DNA from: Candidatus Poribacteria bacterium
Lineage (GTDB): Bacteria; Poribacteria; WGA-4E; WGA-3G
NCBI GenBank assembly: GCA_022821965.1
Contig: JAJECN010000024.1
Location: 51,112-115,111 of the forward strand
Length of the DNA stretch: 64,000 bases
Reading direction: 5' to 3'
A program made the position numbers and the translations under genes. The notes beneath the pieces are model-generated. The model saw nothing but the letters and a program-made list of their open reading frames with translations, made no database searches and was not told the origin of the DNA. Below are positions 6,682-60,801 of this stretch, in pieces; the first letter of the stretch is position 1; each line of letters starts with the position of its first letter.

Positions 6682-7677
6682 TCAGGTTCTCGCAAGTGCG
6701 CGAGAGACGGACTGCCACACTTCATCAACATCAATCCCTTTCATGCAGATGTTATCTTTGCACTTATCTGTGAACTGTTTACAAGGGCTGCAAGGCACAT
6801 CGTGACGGATAGTTTGGTGTAACTCGCCGAGCGGTTGAAATCGAATGTGGTTGCCAGGACCGAATAGGGACACGGTAGCGGTTCCTACCGCTGCGGCGAT
6901 GTGCATAGGACCGGTATCATTGGTGAGAAAGAGATCACACTTTTCGAGGCAGGCGGCTAACTCCCGAATCTGGAGATTCCCCGCGAATGTAACAGCGCGC
7001 GCGTCCATTAGATTCGCAACAGTATGTACGAGTTCCGTTTCCCTTTGTCCACCAAAAATTAGGACATCGGCGTTGAAATGTTGGACCAGTTTATCCCCTA
7101 TGGCTGCGAAGCGTTCGGGCATCCATTCGCGTAACTTCCAACCCGCTCCCGGAAAGAGTCCCACCTTTAAACCCGTCTCGGTAATGCCTGCAGCGTCAAA
7201 TCGCTGTGTGGCATCTGTACGTTCAGATGACGCGAAAAACATTTCTAATCTCTGATCTACCGCCGGAATTCCAACCGCATGCAACAGATCGAAGTAATGT
7301 GCTGTGGCGTGTTTGTTCCCCTGTTCGCGAACGCGGACGGTGCAGAGTCTACCTTTACCGACACGCTCAGTAGCACCGCTGAGGTACATGAGCAGCTCCG
7401 TGCGAAACTTCCGTTGAAGATCAATCGTCAGTGTAAATTTTCGTTCGCGTAGGATGCGGACAACCCGCAGCATCTCACCCGTATCCTTGTTTTTAGCGAA
7501 CCGATCAAACGTAATTATTTCATCAAGGTGCGGATTTTCTCGGAGCACATCTGCTGACTGTTTCGCGACCAGCACAGCAATGTACGCATCTGGAAAATAG
7601 GCGCGAACAGCCCGAATAACCGGGGTCGTAAGCACAATGTCGCCAAGGGAACTGAGCCGAATGAGCAGTATTCTCAT
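6682..7677 (-). CDS. glycosyltransferase family 9 (LPS heptosyltransferase-like)
   Basis: Starts MRILLIRLSSLGDIVLTTP, the hallmark N-terminus of GT9 ADP-heptose:LPS transferases. The C-terminal donor-binding half contains LFPGAGWKLREWMPERF and FLTNDTGPMHIAAAVGTATVSLFGP, followed by a cysteine-rich end (CSPCKQFTDKCKDNICM) typical of WaaF/RfaF-like members. It would add heptose or a related sugar to core lipopolysaccharide at the inner membrane; the exact sugar is unknown. The ATG comes directly after a heptad repeat arm with no Shine-Dalgarno, so translation initiation may be leader-poor or the promoter may lie in the repeat. Confidence 0.88.
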   Translation of the reverse strand: MRILLIRLSSLGDIVLTTPVIRAVRAYFPDAYIAVLVAKQSADVLRENPHLDEIITFDRFAKNKDTGEMLRVVRILRERKFTLTIDLQRKFRTELLMYLSGATERVGKGRLCTVRVREQGNKHATAHYFDLLHAVGIPAVDQRLEMFFASSERTDATQRFDAAGITETGLKVGLFPGAGWKLREWMPERFAAIGDKLVQHFNADVLIFGGQRETELVHTVANLMDARAVTFAGNLQIRELAACLEKCDLFLTNDTGPMHIAAAVGTATVSLFGPGNHIRFQPLGELHQTIRHDVPCSPCKQFTDKCKDNICMKGIDVDEVWQSVSRALART

Positions 7678-7678
7678 A

Positions 7679-7771
7679 GTTTTCGGTTTTCGGTTATCAG
7701 TTTTCGGTTAAGCGAGTTGCAAACGTTTTTCCTTCTACAAACGGGTTACTGAAGACTATTAACCGACAATT
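7679..7771. repeat. heptad palindromic element between GT9 and thiI
   Basis: Left arm GTTTTCG-GTTTTCG-GTTATCA-GTTTTCG-GTTAAG begins next to the GT9 start codon. The right arm is short (TTAACCGACAA) and supplies the stop codon and last codons of thiI. Confidence 0.75.
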
Positions 7772-8916
7772 ATCTTCTCAAGATTGTTTAATGCGTTTTC
7801 AACCAGTGTTTCTATATCCAAACCTGATTCTGCATCCGCTAATTCAGTAAGCGAAGCACGGGTGGCGGGATGTTTGGGGACAAAAAGGGAACAACAATCC
7901 TGATGTGGACATGTCGATACGTCAAAAGTACCTATCCGTTGTGCTTTTTCAATAATTTCAGCCTTGTCCTCACCGATAAGTGGACGCAGAATCGGGATGT
8001 CGGCAATCGCTTCAATTGTACGGAGGTTCGTTAAAGTCTGGGAAGCCACTTGTGCGAGGCTTTCACCCGTGACGAGTGCCTCTGCATTCACCATAGTCGC
8101 GACGCGCTCAGCAATCCGCGTCATCATCCGCCGGTACAACAGCACCCGGAATGGAGCAGGTGTTGCAGCGACGATAATTTGCTGTAACTCAGCAAATGGA
8201 ACAAGATAGACCGTGCTGCGATAGTTTGATGCCGCCAAAATCTGAGCGAGTTCAATGACCTTCTCCAAGGAAGCCTTATCGGTATACGGATAACTGTAAA
8301 AGTGAATAAAAACGGCTTTTGCGCCGCGCTTTATCATCTGCCATGCAGCGACAGGGGAATCAATTCCACCGGACAACATAACAAGCACCTTACCACTCAC
8401 GCCCACTGGCAATCCGCCAATCCCTTGAATCTTCTCTGTGGAGATATAGGCACCATCTTGTGTTATTTTAACCCAACAAACCAGGTCGGGGTTATGCATA
8501 TCGGCACGCGCACCTGTTTCCTTGATGAGATACCCACCGACCTCCGCACTGATCTGCGGAGAGGTTAACGGAAATGTTTTATCGGTGCGTCTCGTCTCAA
8601 CCTTAAGGGACTCGTAACAGACATTTTGGAGCTGCCGTAACGCCACCTCTTTAATCGCGGTGAGGTCCCTCTCGGTCCGACAAGCGAGTTCAAAATAAAC
8701 GATGCCCATAACTTGCCGCAAGCGTCTTTTAATTTCCGTGGTGTTAGCATGTTGTCCAAGATGAACAAGAATTCTATCATGCAGCCGCTCCACTTCTGCA
8801 TACCCTGTACCACGCAGCGCGAGTTTGATGTTATTCGCAAGTCGTTTCTCAAAAAACACTCTATTTTTGCCTTTGAGTCCAACTTCGCCGTAATGAACAC
8901 TAAACATTTCTTCCAT
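7759..8916 (-). CDS. thiI: tRNA 4-thiouridine synthase ThiI
   Basis: ThiI makes 4-thiouridine at position 8 of tRNA and, in some bacteria, supplies sulfur for thiamine. N-terminal ferredoxin-like/THUMP region: HYGEVGLKGKNR, then KVETRRTDKTFP. The PP-loop ATP-pyrophosphatase motif VMLSGGIDSPVAAW sits near residue 180. STCPHQDCCSLFVPKHP follows with candidate catalytic cysteines. There is no C-terminal rhodanese domain, so it is the short form; an IscS-type donor would have to act directly. ATG 8916 is the ORF start; ATG 8907, preceded by GGAAGAA, is an attractive alternative. The last codons (IVG, stop) come from a heptad repeat arm. Confidence 0.95.
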   Translation of the reverse strand: MEEMFSVHYGEVGLKGKNRVFFEKRLANNIKLALRGTGYAEVERLHDRILVHLGQHANTTEIKRRLRQVMGIVYFELACRTERDLTAIKEVALRQLQNVCYESLKVETRRTDKTFPLTSPQISAEVGGYLIKETGARADMHNPDLVCWVKITQDGAYISTEKIQGIGGLPVGVSGKVLVMLSGGIDSPVAAWQMIKRGAKAVFIHFYSYPYTDKASLEKVIELAQILAASNYRSTVYLVPFAELQQIIVAATPAPFRVLLYRRMMTRIAERVATMVNAEALVTGESLAQVASQTLTNLRTIEAIADIPILRPLIGEDKAEIIEKAQRIGTFDVSTCPHQDCCSLFVPKHPATRASLTELADAESGLDIETLVENALNNLEKIIVG

Positions 8917-9670: not shown

Positions 9671-9772
9671 AGGGGTATCGGCTTTCAGTCTTCGGTTGTC
9701 GGTCAAGAGGCTTTCGGGACTGCTACAAACATTTCTGTACCGACATCTGATATCCTAGAACCGACTGCTATT
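9671..9772. repeat. heptad palindromic element between FMN reductase and RNase H genes
   Basis: Degenerate arms GTATCGGCTTTCAGTC...GTTGTCGGTCAAGAGG and GAACCGACTGCTATTC flank a non-coding core containing CTGCTACAAAC. The arms diverge more than in other copies. Confidence 0.6.
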
Positions 9773-26946: not shown

Positions 26947-27033
26947 AGTTGTCAGTTGTCGGTAACTCCTTATAGTAGGTGAGAACGCTTGCAACTGACA
27001 CACGCTTAACTGAAAACTGATAACCGATAACTA
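26947..27033. repeat. heptad palindromic element downstream of carB
   Basis: Left arm GAGTTGTCAGTTGTCGGTAAC, right arm CTTAACTGAAAACTGATAACCGATAACT, core GTAGGTGAGAACGCTTGCAAC. The right arm ends at the carB stop codon. Confidence 0.8.
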
Positions 27034-30317: not shown

Positions 30318-30356
30318 TTTGTTTTCGGTTATTGGTTGTCGGTCATCGGTTAAGAA
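30318..30356. repeat. heptad repeat arm between carA and carB
   Basis: GTTTTCG-GTTATTG-GTTGTCG-GTCATCG-GTTAAG, one arm only, next to the carB start codon; the second arm appears eroded (TAAAGTCTGAAAATAAG). Confidence 0.7.
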
Positions 30357-30415: not shown

Positions 30416-31675
30416 TCACCTGCGCTGGCGAGGTTTGGAACCTCGCCCTTTCGTTGGTGTATAGATAATTATGGGCTTTACTATAAATGACTGCTGACGA
30501 CCCTCTTCCCCCATCATTTCCGTAAAACGTGAAAATAGATAACTTGCATCATGCGGACCGGGTGATGCCTCCGGATGATACTGCACAGAAAAAATGGGAT
30601 ACTCCCGATGCTGTATCCCTTCAAGTGTGTCATCATTTAGATTAATATGTGTAACGTCAACGCTATTTGGTAGTGAATCAATATCAACACAGAACCCGTG
30701 GTTTTGCGAGGTGATTTCAACCCGATCGGTCTCAAGGTGTTTGACAGGTTGATTCGCACCCCGATGTCCAAACTTCAGTTTGAACGTTTTCCCACCAAGG
30801 GCAAGTCCCAAAAGTTGATGCCCCAGACAGATACCGAAAAGCGGTTTTTTGCCCATTAATCCTTGAATTGTCTCAATGGCATAGTCAACTGGCATTGGAT
30901 CACCCGGACCGTTCGATAGGAACACACCATCCGGTTCCGCCGCGAGAATCTCTTCAGCAGTCGTTTTCGCTGGTACCACTTGCACCTGACATCCGTGCTC
31001 AGTGAGTTGACGTAAGATATTGTATTTAATACCGAAATCAAGAGCAACGACGCGATATTTGGAAATGTGGCTTTCGGTTTTCGGATTTTGGCTATCAGTA
31101 AGAAAACTCTGATGTGCATCGGATCCCTCTTTCTGACTGCTGACTGCTGATTGCTGACCGCTGTCTTGTTGCTGCCATGCATACGAGCTTGGACACGTCA
31201 CCCGATGCACCAAGTCCCAACCTACCAAACCGTGCCACGCTTTAGCTTTCTCTACAAGAGACTCAGGATTCAGATCTTCCGTAGAGAGACATCCATTCAT
31301 TACCCCATGAACTCGGAGACGACGGGTGAGCGCACGAGTATCGATCCCTTGGATCCCAATAATACCGTGTTCTGATAAGTAGGAATCTAAACTCCATTTT
31401 GAACGCCAATTGCTATAGTACGCGCTGTATTCACGAACAACAAACCCTTCCACCTGAGGACCGATGGATTCCACGTCTGCTTCGTTACAACCGTAATTGC
31501 CAATCAATGGATATGTCATCGTCACGATCTGTCCTTTGTAAGAGGGATCGGTCAAAACTTCCTGATAACCCGTCATACTTGTATTAAAGACAACCTCGCC
31601 GAGGGTTTCACCCGTCGCCCCAAATTGCTCACCTTCAAAAACTGTTCCGTCCGCTAACGCGAGAATCGCTTTCAT
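30416..31675 (-). CDS. carA: carbamoyl-phosphate synthase small subunit CarA, with repeat-derived insert and tail
   Basis: Glutaminase subunit that feeds ammonia to CarB. N-terminal half: [50 protein letters not shown]-terminal class I amidotransferase: [26 protein letters not shown] with the catalytic Cys, SQNHGFCVD and [13 protein letters not shown]. Between the two halves residues about 170-204 ([17 protein letters not shown]...) are encoded by a complete heptad palindrome inserted in frame. The last ~30 residues after FTEMM are also extra and end in [10 protein letters not shown], encoded by a second hairpin repeat. The catalytic parts are untouched. ATG 31675 directly precedes carB in the operon direction. 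Confidence 0.96.
30427..30447. repeat. GGCGAGGTT/AACCTCGCC hairpin encoding the CarA C-terminus
   Basis: Two perfect nine-base arms around a TGG loop lie just inside the carA stop codon. A decayed relative (GCGGTTTGGAACCTCACC) occurs near 11690. Confidence 0.75.
31071..31164. repeat. heptad palindromic element inside carA
   Basis: Arms CTTTCGGTTTTCGG...GGCTATCAGTAAGAAA and CTGACTGCTGACTGCTGATTGC are inverted copies made of seven-base units (coding strand GTCAGCA repeated). The whole element is open and in frame with carA. Confidence 0.75.
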
Positions 31676-35622: not shown

Positions 35623-36411
35623 ATGAGAAAAAACACGTTTAGAGAGCTACTCAATGCGGATAAACCGACAGTCGGCACGCATATCCATACTACATGGCCC
35701 TCCATCGTTGAAGCGATCGGACACACAGGGATGTACGACTACGTCGAATTCGTAGGCGAATACGGTCCGTTCGATCTGCACGATCTGGACAACTTATGCC
35801 GAGCGGCTGAACTTCACAACATCTCTACAATGATTAAAGTCGACCAAGAGCCACGCGGCTTCATCGCACAACGCGCGATTGGCTCTGGCTTCCAAAGTGT
35901 GCTCTACGCGGATTGCCAAAACGTCGAAGATGTAAAAGAATGCGTGAAAATTACGCGTGCTGATACACCGGAAGATGGGGGCAGCTACGGTGTAGCGACC
36001 CGCCGATTTTCCTATATGGGTTACGGAGGTGGTCCAGAATACGTTCAAGCACTCCGTGATGTCGTTAACGTCATTATGATTGAGAAGAAAGGCACCGTTG
36101 AGAACCTTGAAGAGGTGCTGTCTGTTAAAGGCGTTGATATGATTCAGTGGGGCGGTTCAGATTATTCGATGAGTGTCGGGATGGTCGGTCAGCGCGGTGC
36201 GCCTGAAATCCAAGAGGCACACGACCGGGTGTTCAAAACCGCGATAAAAATGGGGGTGCCGCCGCGCGCGGAAATTGGAAGTGCCGACGACACGAAACGC
36301 TATCTGGATATGGGGGTTCGGCATTTCTGCATCGGCACCGACATTTCCATCCTCTATAGTTGGTGGCGGGAACAGGGTGACGGGGTAAGGAAGGCTCTTG
36401 AAGGACATTAG
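35623..36411 (+). CDS. HpcH/HpaI-family aldolase
   Basis: Class II pyruvate-type aldolase family (2,4-dihydroxyhept-2-ene-1,7-dioate aldolase-like). Seen: VGTHIHTTWPSIVEAIGHTGMYDYVEFVGEYGPFD at the N-terminus, the conserved Arg/Gln region VATRRFSYMGYG, MIEKKGTVENLEEVLSVKGVDMIQWGGSDYSMSVG with metal-binding Glu and Asp, and the C-terminal RHFCIGTDISILYSWW. Length 262 aa fits. It would cleave or form a C-C bond using a pyruvate-like enolate; the substrate is unknown. Convergent with the creatininase-family gene, with a complete heptad element between them. Confidence 0.88.
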   Translation: MRKNTFRELLNADKPTVGTHIHTTWPSIVEAIGHTGMYDYVEFVGEYGPFDLHDLDNLCRAAELHNISTMIKVDQEPRGFIAQRAIGSGFQSVLYADCQNVEDVKECVKITRADTPEDGGSYGVATRRFSYMGYGGGPEYVQALRDVVNVIMIEKKGTVENLEEVLSVKGVDMIQWGGSDYSMSVGMVGQRGAPEIQEAHDRVFKTAIKMGVPPRAEIGSADDTKRYLDMGVRHFCIGTDISILYSWWREQGDGVRKALEGH

Positions 36412-36412
36412 A

Positions 36413-36537
36413 GTAGTTATCAGTTTTCAGTTATCGGTTATCAGTTAAGAGGCATGCTGTGGCGGGTACAACAAAAGCAACTGCCACAAGTGGTTAACTG
36501 ACAACTGATGACTGAAAACTGATAACCGACAACTATT
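36413..36537. repeat. heptad palindromic element, best-preserved copy
   Basis: Left arm TAGTTATCAGTTTTCAGTTATCG + GTTATCAGTTAAG and right arm TTAACTGACAACTGATGACTG + AAAACTGATAACCGACAACTA are near-perfect inverted copies of 36-43 bases around a 45-base core (GAGGCATGCTG...CTGCCACAAG). Each arm is a chain of seven-base units of the form GTTWTCR. Confidence 0.85.
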
Positions 36538-40550: not shown

Positions 40551-40575
40551 CTTTCGTATGTTTCCGTTTAATTGA

Positions 40576-40698
40576 CAGGACTTACGCAATTTTGCTCATC
40601 GCAGACTCTATGAGAGGGGGTCCCTGTAAAAAACGCATTCGGTTTCAGGGCACAACCTAACAGGTTATGCTACAAATAGAGTACTCTGCGTAAGTCCT
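40576..40698. mobile_element. miniature inverted-repeat element with AGGACTTACGCA ends
   Basis: AGGACTTACGCA at 40577-40588 and its exact complement TGCGTAAGTCCT at 40687-40698 bound a 120-base non-coding element; AATTG is present just outside both ends (possible target duplication). The core contains the hairpin GCACAACCT-AAC-AGGTTATGC. It sits between the methyltransferase start and the lipoprotein stop, supplying part of that stop codon. No transposase is encoded. Confidence 0.75.
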
Positions 40699-52184: not shown

Positions 52185-52198
52185 GATGTGAGGAATGG

Positions 52199-52284
52199 TC
52201 TTCAGTTGTCAGTAACAAGAAGGTGTTTCTATAGATTTCCCGTGTTAAATGCAACCCTCTTACTTAACTGAAAACCGATAACTC
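52199..52284. repeat. heptad palindromic element between lptA and lptB
   Basis: Arms CTTCAGTTGTCAGTAACAAG and CTTAACTGAAAACCGATAACT around a 45-base core; the right arm ends 11 bases before the lptB start. Confidence 0.75.
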
Positions 52285-55656: not shown

Positions 55657-55871
55657 TGGTTATCGGTTTTCAGTTAAGAGGTTTTTTTGTAATGATCTTC
55701 GCTCACTTGGAATATTTCAGGGCAGCGATCAATTGTTACAGACCATTCTTAACCGATAACTCTCACTGCGAGGCAAACTAACAACTGTAAATATGAGGAA
55801 TGGTTATCGGTTATCAGTTACAAGAGGAAACCGTTCTTAAACGAAAATCTCTTAACCGAAAACTGACAAGT
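55656..55871. repeat. two heptad palindromic elements in tandem before valS
   Basis: Copy 1 (55656-55762): GGTTATCGGTTTTCAGTTAAGAGG with right arm CTTAACCGATAACT. Copy 2 (55798-55871): GGTTATCGGTTATCAGTTACAAGAGG with right arm CTCTTAACCGAAAACTGAC. The second ends six bases before the valS start codon. Confidence 0.8.
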
Positions 55872-55877
55872 AAAAAA

Positions 55878-58544
55878 ATGACAAATCTCCCGAAAACCTA
55901 TACCCCTCAGGAAATTGAGGGGAAATGGTACCAATTTTGGCAGAAAAACGGCTACTTCCACGCGGAAGCAACCTCAGATAAACCGCCTTATGCGATTGTG
56001 ATCCCGCCGCCGAATATCACGGGCAGCCTACACATCGGGCATGCGCTCGATAATACACTCCAAGATTGCCTCATCCGATGGAGACGCATGCAAGGCTATA
56101 ATACGCTCTGGATGCCCGGTACCGACCATGCTGGTATCGTCACCGAGCTTATTATGGAGCGACAACTTGCCGAGGAAGGCACCAGTAGAATCGCACTCGG
56201 ACGCGAAAAATTCATCGAACGCATGTGGCAGTGGAAAGCTGAATCTGCTGGCTACATCGTTTCACAACTTCAACAAATCGGGTGCTCTTGCGATTGGGAA
56301 CGTGAACGTTTTACCCTCGATGAAGGCTTGTCTAAAGCCGTCCGTACCGCCTTTGTCAAGCTCTACAACCAAGGACTTATCTATCGCGATACCTATATGG
56401 CAAACTGGTGTCCGAACTGCAACACTGTCTTAAGTAACCTTGAGGTCGAACCTATTGAGATAGATGGACACTTTTATCACATCCATTACCCAATTAAGGA
56501 CAGTGATGTCGTGCTTGAAATTGCCACAACACGCCCCGAAACGATGTTGGGGGATACCGCTGTTGCTGTGCATCCTGACGATGAACGCTACCAACATCTG
56601 ATCGGAAAGACAGCACTCCTACCGCTCTGTGACAGAGAAATTCCGATAATCGCAGACGCTTATGTAGACAGAGAATTCGGTACCGGTGCCCTAAAAGTTA
56701 CACCCGCGCACGATACCAACGACTACGAAATCGGCTTGCGGCATAACCTTGAACAGTGGAATGTTTTCACACGAGATGGATATATAAACGAAAATGCCCC
56801 TGAGAAATACGTCGGTTTAGCCCGATGGGATTGTCGCGAACGTGTCGTTGAAGATTTGCAAGATTCGGGTTATCTCGTCAAAATTGTACCGCATCGGCAC
56901 GCCGTTGGACATCATGATCGGTGCGGCACGATTGTCGAACCCACGATATCGCTGCAATGGTTCATGAATGTCCGTCCGCTTGCGCAGCGCGCCATCGAAG
57001 CAACCCAAAAAGGTGAAGTAAAGTTCATTCCAGAACGGGAAACAGCGCGCTTCTATCATTGGATGGAAAACATTGAACCGTGGCCCATCTCACGCCAACG
57101 GTGGTGGGGACATCGACTTCCAATATGGTACTGTAACGAATGTGAGGCAGTCGTCGCATCAATTGAAGCACCTGAGCAATGCGAGTGTGGTGCCGCCGAT
57201 TTCCGTCAGGAAGAAGACGTTTTAGACACATGGTTCAGCTCTGGGTTGTGGCCCTTTTCGACAATGGGATGGCCAGAAGAAACGGAAGAACTGAAAACCT
57301 TTTATCCGACCTCCGTTCTTGTAACCGGCTGGGATATTCTCTTTTTTTGGGTGGCAAGAATGATTATGTTAGGATTAGGGTGTATGGACGAAGTTCCGTT
57401 CCGTACTGTCTATCTGCACGGGCTTGTTGCCGATGAAAAAGGGGAGAAAATGAGCAAATCGAAGGGAAATAGCATCGATCCGTTGGAAACAATTGACACC
57501 TACGGAACGGATGCCTTCCGCTTCGCACTCGCAAACACAAGTACTCCAATCCCCTATGTCCCGCTCCAGGAACCTCAGATTGAAGCAGGCAGGCGATTTG
57601 CCAACAAAATTTGGAATGCCGCTCGGTTCATTTTGATGAATTTAGAGAAACATCCCGTGCCTACAGAAACGGATGCTCTGAAAACTACAGAGGAAACATT
57701 AGAAATCACGTGGATACGGAGTCGTCTCAGCCACACCATCAAAACGGCAACCGATGCGCTCGAAAATTTCCGGTTCTATGAAGTGGCGCAAACACTCTAT
57801 GCCTTCCTTTGGCATGAATTCTGTGATTGGTATCTGGAATTCGCCAAACAGCGGATCGCGCAAGATAAACCAGAGGCACTCTGGGTAGCCGCCGATGTTT
57901 TAGAGCAGACAATGCGACTCCTTCACCCTCTGATGCCTTTCTTAACCGAAGAGATCTGGCAACAACTCCCTCACGGTGGTGGAAGAGAAAAAAGCTCTGT
58001 AACAGTTTCCTCCTGGCCAGAACCAATAGGAGAAAATCCAACAGCAGAAACCACGATGACCACGCTAATGGAAGTCATTGATAGTGTTCGTAGTATTAGG
58101 GGTGAGTTGAACGTTCCAATCGGGGCATCTGTAGACGTTCACATCCAATCACCAGAGGCTGAAGTGCGTGAACGCCTCGAAACATATCTCGCACACTACT
58201 TACCCGCTTTCACAAAGATAGCAGACATTACTATCGCGGAATCGCTGCCAAAACCCAGTGCCTCAGCGGAAGCTGTAATCGGTGAACTTGCCATTTATAT
58301 CCCGCTTGCTGACGTAATCGACTTGGAAGCAGAACATGCAAGACTTAGCAAACGGCATCAACAGGCAGTTAAAAATGTCGCATCAGCACAGAAGACTTTA
58401 GATAACCCAAACTTCATTCAGCGCGCACCGGAACAAGTTGTGGCACAAAAAAGAGCGCAGCTCGAGCGGCTAATGATGGAGCAGGAAAAATTAGCACAGA
58501 GCCTCACAATGCTCATCGAATCAGGAAGTGAAAATGGCGATTGA
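55878..58544 (+). CDS. valS: valyl-tRNA synthetase ValS
   Basis: Class I synthetase charging tRNA-Val. ATG 55878 (MTNLPKTYTPQEIEGKWY) is the real start; the 26 codons before it in the ORF come from a heptad repeat. Motifs: HIGH as SLHIGHALDN, the CP1 editing domain with TTRPETMLGDTAVAVHP, WCPNCNTVLSNLEVE, VLDTWFSSGLWPFSTMGWP, KMSKS as GEKMSKSKGNSIDPL, the anticodon-binding domain, and a C-terminal coiled coil (LEAEHARLSKRHQQAVKNVA). Length 888 aa is normal. No T-box or other leader was recognised. It overlaps the thioesterase start by 11 bases. Confidence 0.97.
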   Translation: MTNLPKTYTPQEIEGKWYQFWQKNGYFHAEATSDKPPYAIVIPPPNITGSLHIGHALDNTLQDCLIRWRRMQGYNTLWMPGTDHAGIVTELIMERQLAEEGTSRIALGREKFIERMWQWKAESAGYIVSQLQQIGCSCDWERERFTLDEGLSKAVRTAFVKLYNQGLIYRDTYMANWCPNCNTVLSNLEVEPIEIDGHFYHIHYPIKDSDVVLEIATTRPETMLGDTAVAVHPDDERYQHLIGKTALLPLCDREIPIIADAYVDREFGTGALKVTPAHDTNDYEIGLRHNLEQWNVFTRDGYINENAPEKYVGLARWDCRERVVEDLQDSGYLVKIVPHRHAVGHHDRCGTIVEPTISLQWFMNVRPLAQRAIEATQKGEVKFIPERETARFYHWMENIEPWPISRQRWWGHRLPIWYCNECEAVVASIEAPEQCECGAADFRQEEDVLDTWFSSGLWPFSTMGWPEETEELKTFYPTSVLVTGWDILFFWVARMIMLGLGCMDEVPFRTVYLHGLVADEKGEKMSKSKGNSIDPLETIDTYGTDAFRFALANTSTPIPYVPLQEPQIEAGRRFANKIWNAARFILMNLEKHPVPTETDALKTTEETLEITWIRSRLSHTIKTATDALENFRFYEVAQTLYAFLWHEFCDWYLEFAKQRIAQDKPEALWVAADVLEQTMRLLHPLMPFLTEEIWQQLPHGGGREKSSVTVSSWPEPIGENPTAETTMTTLMEVIDSVRSIRGELNVPIGASVDVHIQSPEAEVRERLETYLAHYLPAFTKIADITIAESLPKPSASAEAVIGELAIYIPLADVIDLEAEHARLSKRHQQAVKNVASAQKTLDNPNFIQRAPEQVVAQKRAQLERLMMEQEKLAQSLTMLIESGSENGD

Positions 58545-58999: not shown

Positions 59000-59113
59000 A
59001 TAGTTGTCACCCGTCAGTCATCAGTTTGCAACCAGAGTCGTCTCTACCAGAAAACAATACGCAACTGCCACATACTGATAGCCGAGTGCCAAGTGCTGAT
59101 AGCCGAAAACAGA
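59000..59113. repeat. degenerate heptad element before nadB
   Basis: AGTTGTCACCCGTCAGTCATCAGTTTGC and AACTGCCACATACTGATAGCCGAGTGCCAAGTGCTGATAGCCGAAAAC are degenerate inverted arms. It accounts for the 31 non-homologous codons at the start of the nadB ORF. Confidence 0.65.
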
Positions 59114-59118
59114 AACTT

Positions 59119-60801
59119 ATGAAAAATACAACATCTGCGATGAATCCAGAAGGGCATCCAAATTGGGACACAGATGTCCTCATCATCGGTAGCGGTGCTG
59201 CAGGGTTACGTGCTGCCCTCGCTGCGAGTGAGCACGCGAATGTGACGTTAATCACCAAAACTACACTGACAGAGAGCAACACACACTACGCTCAAGGCGG
59301 TATCGCAGTTGTCATGAATCTTGATGACACGATTGCCTTGCACATAAAGGACACCTGCGATGCGGGTGCTGGACTCTGTGATGTCGAAGCTGTTGAGATG
59401 ATGGTATCTGAAGGCATTCCACGCGTCGCTGAACTTTTAGAGTGGGGCGCGAACTTTGATTGGGAAGGCACGCTCCCGCGCTTCACACAAGAAGCCGCGC
59501 ACAGCCGCCGCCGTATTGTTCATAAAGGGGACGCAACCGGACGCGAAACAACGGATGTTCTCATTCAGCGTGTGCTTAACACTGAACGCATTCATGTCCT
59601 GCAGAACACATTTGCTATCGACTTACTAACGGATGCAGACATTGCAAAGGCGCGTGGCGAAACTGTTACATGCTACGGTGTTACTGCGATTGTAGAGGGA
59701 GAAGTCGTTTGTATTCGTGCGAGAGCCACAATCCTCGCGACTGGTGGGCTCGGACGGGTCTACCCCTGTACCTCTAACCCAAAAGTGGCAACTGGCGATG
59801 GATTCGCTGCAGCATGGCGCGCTGGATGCGAAATGGTCGATATGGAATTCGTTCAGTTCCATCCAACGACGCTTTACTTAGATGGTGCCCCCAACTTCTT
59901 AATCTCTGAAGCGGTCCGTGGTGAAGGGGGCAAGCTCATCAATATTCGTGGTGAACGCTTTATGGAGAAATATCACGAAAAAGGCGAACTCGCACCACGT
60001 GATATTGTCAGCCGTTCCAACCAAAAAGAGATGGAGTTGACTGCATTCCCGTGCGTCTACCTTGACATCACCCACAAACCCGCCGAGTTTATCCACGAAC
60101 GATTTCCAACCATCTCTGATACTACCAGACGCTATGGATTAGATATCAGCGTTGACCTAATTCCTGTCCGTCCCGGTGCTCACTTTATGATGGGTGGCAT
60201 CCGCACGAATACCGATACAGAAACGAACCTTAAAGGACTTTACGCGTGTGGTGAAGTGGCATGCACTGGCGTGCACGGAGCAAACCGTTTGGCGAGTAAC
60301 TCTCTGCTGGAATGCCTCGTCTACGGTACCCGTGCTGGCACAAACGCAGCAACTTTTGCGAATAGTTATCAGTCATCAGTCATCAGTGCTCAGTTCCAAG
60401 AAGGTTTTGAGGCTGCCACGAGACATTCTTTAAATGATAACCGAAAACTGAAAACCGATGACTATTCTATAGAAGCGATAAAGGATGCGATCCAGGAAAC
60501 ACTCTGGGAAAATGTGAGTATTGAACGAAACGGCGAAGGTTTAAGACAAACCCTCGCCGAATTGGAAGATTTAACGGAGCATTTAGAAGCGGTGCGAGCA
60601 ACACCAGAAATGACGACTATCTCGATGATCGAAACGGTTAATATGCTTGATGTTGCTTTGATGATAACGCGATCTGCACTTATGCGGACCGAAAGTCGCG
60701 GTGCACACTACCGTGCTGACTGCCCGACACAAGACGATACCAATTGGCACCACCGTATCCTTATCACGCACGATAACTCACCAGAAGTAATCCCCTTATA
60801 A
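59119..60801 (+). CDS. nadB: L-aspartate oxidase NadB, with repeat-derived insert
   Basis: Oxidises aspartate to iminoaspartate for quinolinate and NAD synthesis. ATG 59119 is preferred. FAD-binding N-terminus VLIIGSGAAGLRAALAASEHANVTLITK, then THYAQGGIAVVM, AAHSRRRIVHKGDATGRE, ILATGGLGRVYPCTSNP, MEFVQFHPTTLY, VRGEGGKLIN, HFMMGGIRTNTDTETNLKGLYACGEVACTGVHGANRLASNSLLECLVYG. This matches NadB/SdhA enzymes, and the HGANRLASNSLLE active-site end is intact. Residues about 414-449 (YQSSVISAQFQEGFEA...RKLKTDDY), between the FAD domain and the C-terminal helical domain, are encoded by an in-frame heptad palindrome. nadA and nadC are not nearby; nadD opens the window. Confidence 0.95.
   Translation: MKNTTSAMNPEGHPNWDTDVLIIGSGAAGLRAALAASEHANVTLITKTTLTESNTHYAQGGIAVVMNLDDTIALHIKDTCDAGAGLCDVEAVEMMVSEGIPRVAELLEWGANFDWEGTLPRFTQEAAHSRRRIVHKGDATGRETTDVLIQRVLNTERIHVLQNTFAIDLLTDADIAKARGETVTCYGVTAIVEGEVVCIRARATILATGGLGRVYPCTSNPKVATGDGFAAAWRAGCEMVDMEFVQFHPTTLYLDGAPNFLISEAVRGEGGKLINIRGERFMEKYHEKGELAPRDIVSRSNQKEMELTAFPCVYLDITHKPAEFIHERFPTISDTTRRYGLDISVDLIPVRPGAHFMMGGIRTNTDTETNLKGLYACGEVACTGVHGANRLASNSLLECLVYGTRAGTNAATFANSYQSSVISAQFQEGFEAATRHSLNDNRKLKTDDYSIEAIKDAIQETLWENVSIERNGEGLRQTLAELEDLTEHLEAVRATPEMTTISMIETVNMLDVALMITRSALMRTESRGAHYRADCPTQDDTNWHHRILITHDNSPEVIPL
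60362..60466. repeat. heptad palindromic element inside nadB
   Basis: Left arm GTTATCA-GTCATCA-GTCATCA-GTGCTCA-GTTCCAAG and right arm TAAATGATAACCGAAAACTGAAAACCGATGACTAT, open and in frame across roughly 105 bases. Confidence 0.8.

Follow-up and report, generated by a model that had tools for sequence, protein, structure and literature searches.

Direct repeats of the heptamer TAACTGA are known from Beggiatoaceae, Cyanobacteria and five Bacteroidetes; in the most closely studied genome 169 sets were recorded as direct and a single one as inverted, and the paper makes no mention of Poribacteria (MacGregor 2015, PMC4679880). The same heptamer (GTTATCA, whose reverse complement can be rotated to TAACTGA) makes up the arms of a family of palindromes in the genome of a Candidatus Poribacteria bacterium (5.69 Mb, 62 contigs), examined here from a stretch of 64,000 nucleotides, G000:C15:51112-115111, hereafter called the window. 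The original prediction for this DNA had presented the heptamer arms as unlike those of standard elements, and the heptamer itself turns out to be no novelty. The TAACTGA repeats and the poribacterial arrays are alike in lying mostly between genes, near stop or start codons, and in their translations (LSVISYQ, or LITDN plus stops). They differ in that the repeats described by MacGregor are direct with nearly no inverted partner, whereas the poribacterial arrays as a rule converge in pairs on shared cores, with two-armed copies also occurring in frame within housekeeping enzymes. Heptamer arrays were also matched in plasmids of Fischerella, Microcystis, Nostoc, Planktothrix, Brasilonema and Bernardetia and in phage Mic1, and the seven plasmid stretches that were read all carry direct arrays with no inverted partner. 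On the cyanobacterial plasmids L280, L283 and L284, the arrays start no more than a few nucleotides past an annotated stop codon.

Other described systems share parts of this design. The P6b stem-loop of the Nostoc trnL intron likewise consists of seven-nucleotide repeats on both sides of a stem and in variable number; its repeat class switches within a single locus, and side stem-loops have entered it at the same position (PMC4476775). It is the closest parallel for such a stem, but it is a single intron locus with a role in RNA structure and no dispersed family. Rickettsia palindromic elements, the closest parallel for palindromes in frame, are short (about 150 bp), lie in unrelated genes and are translatable (PMC10969869); heptamer arms do not feature in their description, which is what they were compared by, and their trait of lying in frame within genes whose function is known recurs here in carA, nadB, pbpC and glyQ-glyS. 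REPINs and RAYT-associated REPs also are inverted hairpin doublets of high copy number in intergenic DNA (PMC3116915), but the poribacterial arms are tandem heptamers and no RAYT is linked to them in this genome. MITEs resemble the palindromes as short elements with terminal inverted repeats (here TAAT-RGTT on both arms) and no transposase of their own (PMC10969869), but for the palindromes no target-site duplication was seen and no parent IS was found among the 432 kb sampled. Literature on palindromic or repetitive sequences in Poribacteria, searched within an open-access library, gave no description of this family, and the palindromic arrangement with shared cores, together with the in-frame copies in carA, nadB, pbpC and glyQ-glyS, is apparently new.

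The type copy (36413..36537) lies beside an aldolase gene (35623-36411) whose closest relatives are in Candidatus Poribacteria MAGs, at up to 97% protein identity; the cyanobacterial origin that the heptamer had at first suggested for the window is thereby rejected. Its left arm (36416-36448) and right arm (36494-36526), each of 33 nt, are 91% complementary and enclose 45 nt with a family B core (TGTGGCGG..ACTGCCACA). As RNA the copy reaches a folding energy of -59.4 kcal/mol, which corresponds to z = -10.2 relative to dinucleotide shuffles, and it scores 88.2 bits at 36432-36509 with covariance model R1, of whose 13 source sequences it is itself one. In Rfam 15, no match above the gathering threshold was found for the window.

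Every copy position originally listed for the window yielded heptamer arrays (unit CRGTTNT, i.e. GTTATCA), mostly as convergent pairs, while those at 9671, 30318 and 59000 proved weak or one-sided. Palindromic copies occupy 7678..7769, flanked by genes on the minus strand at 6682-7677 and 7759-8916; 26947..27032, downstream of carB; 52197..52283, in an intergenic space between tandem genes; and 55658..55761, with a family C core (GTAATGAT..ATTGTTAC). A second, short palindrome (55802..55869) overlaps the called ORF 55800-58544, whose true start is probably downstream of it. The copy at 9671..9767 is degenerate; at 30318..30348 (plus strand), in the carA/carB spacer, only a left arm is present; and a weak copy at 59013..59085 overlaps the called start of the ORF at 59026. 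Two further copies, at 31069..31158 and 60364..60463, had been listed by the original prediction (as 31071 and 60362), which missed that both lie in frame, within carA (30416..31675, minus strand) and nadB (59026..60801, plus strand). The last 26 residues of CarA (window 30416-30500) also match other places in several congeneric genomes, and the C-terminus of this protein seems to derive from another dispersed repeat.

A typical copy reads TAAT-RGTT-(heptamers)-GTTAAGAGG-core-CCTCTTAAC-(heptamers)-AACTATTA and measures about 70-170 bp between outer ends TAAT-RGTT..AACY-ATTA. The arms hold 2-6 heptamers CRGTTNT aimed at the core, which is bounded by the inner junctions GTTAAGAGG and CCTCTTAAC and has a modal length of 47-51 nt in the 47 pairs listed. 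Several unrelated core families exist and recur at unrelated loci, which establishes the dispersal of shared cores: family B (TGTGGCAGTTACA..TGTAACTGCCACA), family C (TTGTAACAATTTAC..AATTGTTAC), one more whose centres resemble GTTTAATYAAA, and still others. Two copies at different loci are up to 87% identical over about 150 nt. Side-hairpin modules X (ACGATTTTTCTGCGAAAAATCTT) and E (CTCTCACTGCGAGGCAAA) may be placed within an arm, and where one copy has both they sit in opposite arms. The outer edge TAAT-RGTT is conserved on both arms, with no conservation beyond it, and its TAATAG form includes stop codons. Copies do touch stop and start codons, as first noticed, and those in spacers between tandem genes begin at a median of 8 nt past the upstream stop codon.

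Array censuses covered 432 kb, about 8% of the genome, made up of the 64-kb window, which was not picked for its copies, and another 368 kb mostly picked for containing hits. A cyclic profile trained on this set gives C(93) A/G(76/24) G(99) T(92) T/C(83/12) A/G/T(53/26/21) T(92), in which GTTATCA is the commonest form. A mechanical scan of the window found nine arrays of at least three degenerate units, against 0.05 per shuffled window, and among the short tandem repeats of poribacterial loci it is those of period 7 that are in excess (6.6 per 100 kb versus 0.6-1.3 for the other periods from 4 to 12). Polarity is marked: adjacent arrays no more than 150 nt apart in the 432 kb were convergent in 52 cases and divergent in six, and more stringent scoring left 140 strong arrays, of which 102 (73%) had a convergent partner within 130 nt and two (1%) a divergent one, while a reversed control gave six. 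The further copies on which the original prediction of a dispersed heptamer-armed family depended are present genome-wide, with 351 matches to GTTATCAGTTATCAGTTA at up to two mismatches and none to the reversed control. Extrapolation from the window density of about 11 per 64 kb puts the element copies of all kinds in the genome at several hundred to a thousand.

The family also is genus-wide. In a genus sample of 38 genomes, the source genome included, a covariance model of family B (E <= 0.01) has matches in all 38, at least 21-110 in each; these numbers are not copy numbers, as palindromes often match on both strands. The same model is sparse in two sister genera (0-16 matches) and has no match in genomes of other families of the phylum. 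A pattern related to GTTATCAGTTATCAGTTA was searched for in 35 congeners and occurs in every one of them, 44-586 times per genome counting both strands; in other families it is rare or missing.

Orthologous sites were compared by aligning the window with five congeners. Most window sites are common to relatives at about 90-94% nucleotide identity, so that gain of the element is slow or past, and at each of them the arms and cores have been rebuilt. The type site at 36413, for instance, is filled in all six genomes with differing unit numbers per arm and differing cores. Relatives lacking the element at orthologous positions, the other support that the original prediction called for, do exist. 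The 9671 site is filled in G008 and G017 and lacks the element in G001, G020 and G021; the 26947 site lacks it in G017, and the 58995 site, that of the weak copy at 59013..59085, in G017 and G021. The absence at 9671 may be a loss, because the close relative G001 retains a short remnant-like sequence. The spacer upstream of carA exists in both filled and empty versions, and so does carA itself, where the site is filled in 18 genomes of the genus and empty in 12. Differences between filled and empty spacers could also reflect replacement by gene conversion. Nesting was encountered as well: a further palindrome (TTAACCATCAACTCG..CGAGTTGATGGTTAA) lies within heptamer elements at 9671 in G008 and at 30318 in G001 and G008, where other palindromes occupy the spacer.

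Of 48 pairs in the 432 kb, seven lie in frame and well within predicted genes. The carA copy encodes about residues 172-202 of the carbamoyl-phosphate synthase small subunit, after its CPSase domain (5-130) and before its GATase domain (211-386), a placement examined also by alignment to E. coli CarA; the 12 empty genes have a short linker of the HQENNNVDPK type. The carA segments keep the frame at all lengths, and no listed segment contains a stop. The filled or empty label changes four times on the carA tree, with well-supported branches forcing at least two changes. The copy in nadB, which codes for L-aspartate oxidase, contributes the peptide SYQSSVISAQFQEGFEAATRHSLNDNRKLKTDDY at about residues 446-479, between FAD_binding_2 (50-427) and Succ_DH_flav_C (487-584). 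With a consensus element peptide, many more matches appear in 25 of the 38 genomes, a good part of them within long open frames, including two positions in a gene read from its sequence as pbpC and the linker of what reads as a fused glyQ-glyS. The arms of in-frame copies switch heptamer between species: at the pbpC site they are GTTATCA-like in G001 and G008 and GTCAGCR / AGCCTTY-like in many others, and some genomes have unrelated linkers. The pbpC of G003 (L229) holds a complete element set within an older one. At the same site, L241 and L248 have a linker of GTTCGCG-type heptamers, possibly another dialect of the repeat. Palindromes of another kind, starting with GTAG, lie in frame in the glyQ-glyS linker of many congeners (L251-L279, with peptides such as VGAVSNRTE and VGGICNPD), so that the heptamer family is not the only one whose palindromes turn into protein linkers here.

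The coding capacity of these inserts depends on the word. As a seven-base word read in triplets passes through all three frames every 21 bases, it gives the same translation cycle in each frame: GTTATCA yields the stop-free VISYQLS, and TGATAAC two stops per cycle, a behaviour already noted for this heptamer (MacGregor 2015, PMC4679880). In this genome, GTCAGCN arrays are coding in 4 of 4 cases, and GTTNTCR arrays are intergenic in 32 and coding in two. Open frames make up 7.7% in intergenic copies versus 13.1% in shuffled sequence, and every coding copy has at least one. From the open frames and the conservation of flanking protein sequence, the inserts are probably translated as part of the protein.

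Several explanations can be offered for a palindrome of this kind. One is that the copies are regulatory RNA hairpins, acting as terminators, mRNA stabilisers or protein-binding repeats under selection at the transcript level. The very stable fold of the type copy and the short median distance to the upstream stop codon are in its favour, as is the translational regulation that MacGregor proposes for the TAACTGA repeats of Beggiatoaceae (PMC4679880). Selection on a hairpin RNA would make a copy's own arms fit each other better than swapped ones, but no such excess exists, which argues against it: the duplex energy is -1.000 kcal/mol per nt for own arms and -1.025 +- 0.031 for swapped arms, and compensatory change between the arms is accordingly rejected. 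Nor do the two arms of a copy correlate in length (rho -0.24, p 0.11). With covariation missing in sequence and length alike, the arms owe their symmetry solely to the word they share, and the suggestion that inverted symmetry is kept while they expand and contract is right in kind, but coordinated change preserving the match of one arm to the other is not seen. An excess at heptamer positions 4 and 7 in a pooled set is weak or absent within this genome and is most simply explained by the mixing of genomes with different heptamer types. In 31 copies between tandem genes, sense and antisense folding do not differ (p = 0.71); arms and cores are freely remodelled at one site, and in some in-coding copies the arms no longer match each other. 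All this makes a function as RNA hairpins unlikely. Adjacent units of one arm resemble each other more than units drawn at random do (0.722 versus 0.674, given without a significance figure), and this likeness, together with the independent arm lengths, is what slippage inside each arm predicts. The same two features, and the occurrence of the heptamer elsewhere as plain direct arrays, both in the TAACTGA repeats (PMC4679880) and in the plasmid matches, would suit sequences that do not move: slippage would build the arrays where they stand, as it does in short tandem repeats of Cyanobacteria, and a switch of template from one strand to the other would make them into palindromes. Against this stand a nearly absolute convergent polarity and the fact that unrelated loci have core families, side-hairpin modules, inner junctions and outer ends in common, and we hold an origin in place to be quite unlikely.

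Among mobile elements, the palindromes might be REPIN-like and moved by a RAYT or another Y1 transposase of the IS200/IS605 type. Their two inverted halves with a spacer, length of about 100 nt, mostly intergenic position, occurrence as hundreds of arrays and lack of a visible target-site duplication are compatible with such an element, and the genome does contain one IS605-like locus and three RAYT-like Y1 transposase genes (L157 and L158 at about 376 and 371 kb of G000:C57, and L159 at about 57 kb of C6). Each RAYT-like gene, however, has on its flanks a GTAG-starting repeat family of its own, different from the heptamer palindromes, none of which lies beside any of the three in this genome; mobilisation by these RAYTs is rejected on that ground, and the explanation as a whole appears quite unlikely. 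No transposase was found for the palindromes in the 432 kb, in keeping with the first reading of the window: between solo arms there are only three ORFs, none recognisable as a transposase by inspection, and no autonomous relative. All-against-all alignment showed no target-site duplication for the heptamer family, nor is one visible in the filled and empty carA spacers, which are diverged. The same alignment method does reveal apparent duplications of 6-9 bp for a separate MITE-like element, present at 40574-40698 of the window with ends GGACTTACGCA..TGCGTAAGTCC; in G017, this MITE is inserted in the right arm of the heptamer copy at the 7679 site. A further idea is that a template-bearing enzyme writes the convergent arrays, always of the same heptamer, by adding repeats to the two ends of a broken DNA or of a replication intermediate. 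Such an enzyme would explain one heptamer in unrelated phyla, the near-absolute convergence, the independent arm lengths and the lack of covariation; the shared cores speak against it, unless cores have a copying route of their own, and we give the idea hardly any credence.

The explanation we consider probable, with moderate confidence, is that the heptamer palindromes are a non-autonomous family of dispersed elements of one poribacterial genus, acting at the DNA level, whose arms turn over by slippage. The shared cores, ends and polarity indicate that the whole palindrome was dispersed, presumably by mobilisation, and whole palindromes would have been moved in trans by a recombinase or transposase or else copied between sites. 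After placement, each arm would gain, lose and homogenise its own heptamers by replication slippage, through which the arms could drift apart and the heptamer type change. Most copies may be neutral or tolerated, sitting just past stop codons or in loose interdomain linkers, and in the linkers purifying selection would hold the frame open. There, the stop-free GTTATCA arm would be easily tolerated and the TGATAAC arm would be forced to stop-free variants. Counting against this explanation are the lack, in the 432 kb, of a transposase or autonomous relative, the failure to find a clean insertion bearing a target-site duplication, the many sites common to relatives, and the possibility of gene conversion at filled and empty spacers.

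The heptamer was previously seen as plain tandem arrays with a patchy occurrence over phyla. It now appears as the arms of a dispersed element, in a further phylum, and its spread can therefore be studied as that of an element. The poribacterial family joins the Rickettsia palindromic elements as a second system in which palindromic DNA turns into protein linkers, and its filled and empty orthologues, together with dozens of congeneric genomes, allow the change from palindrome to linker to be followed.
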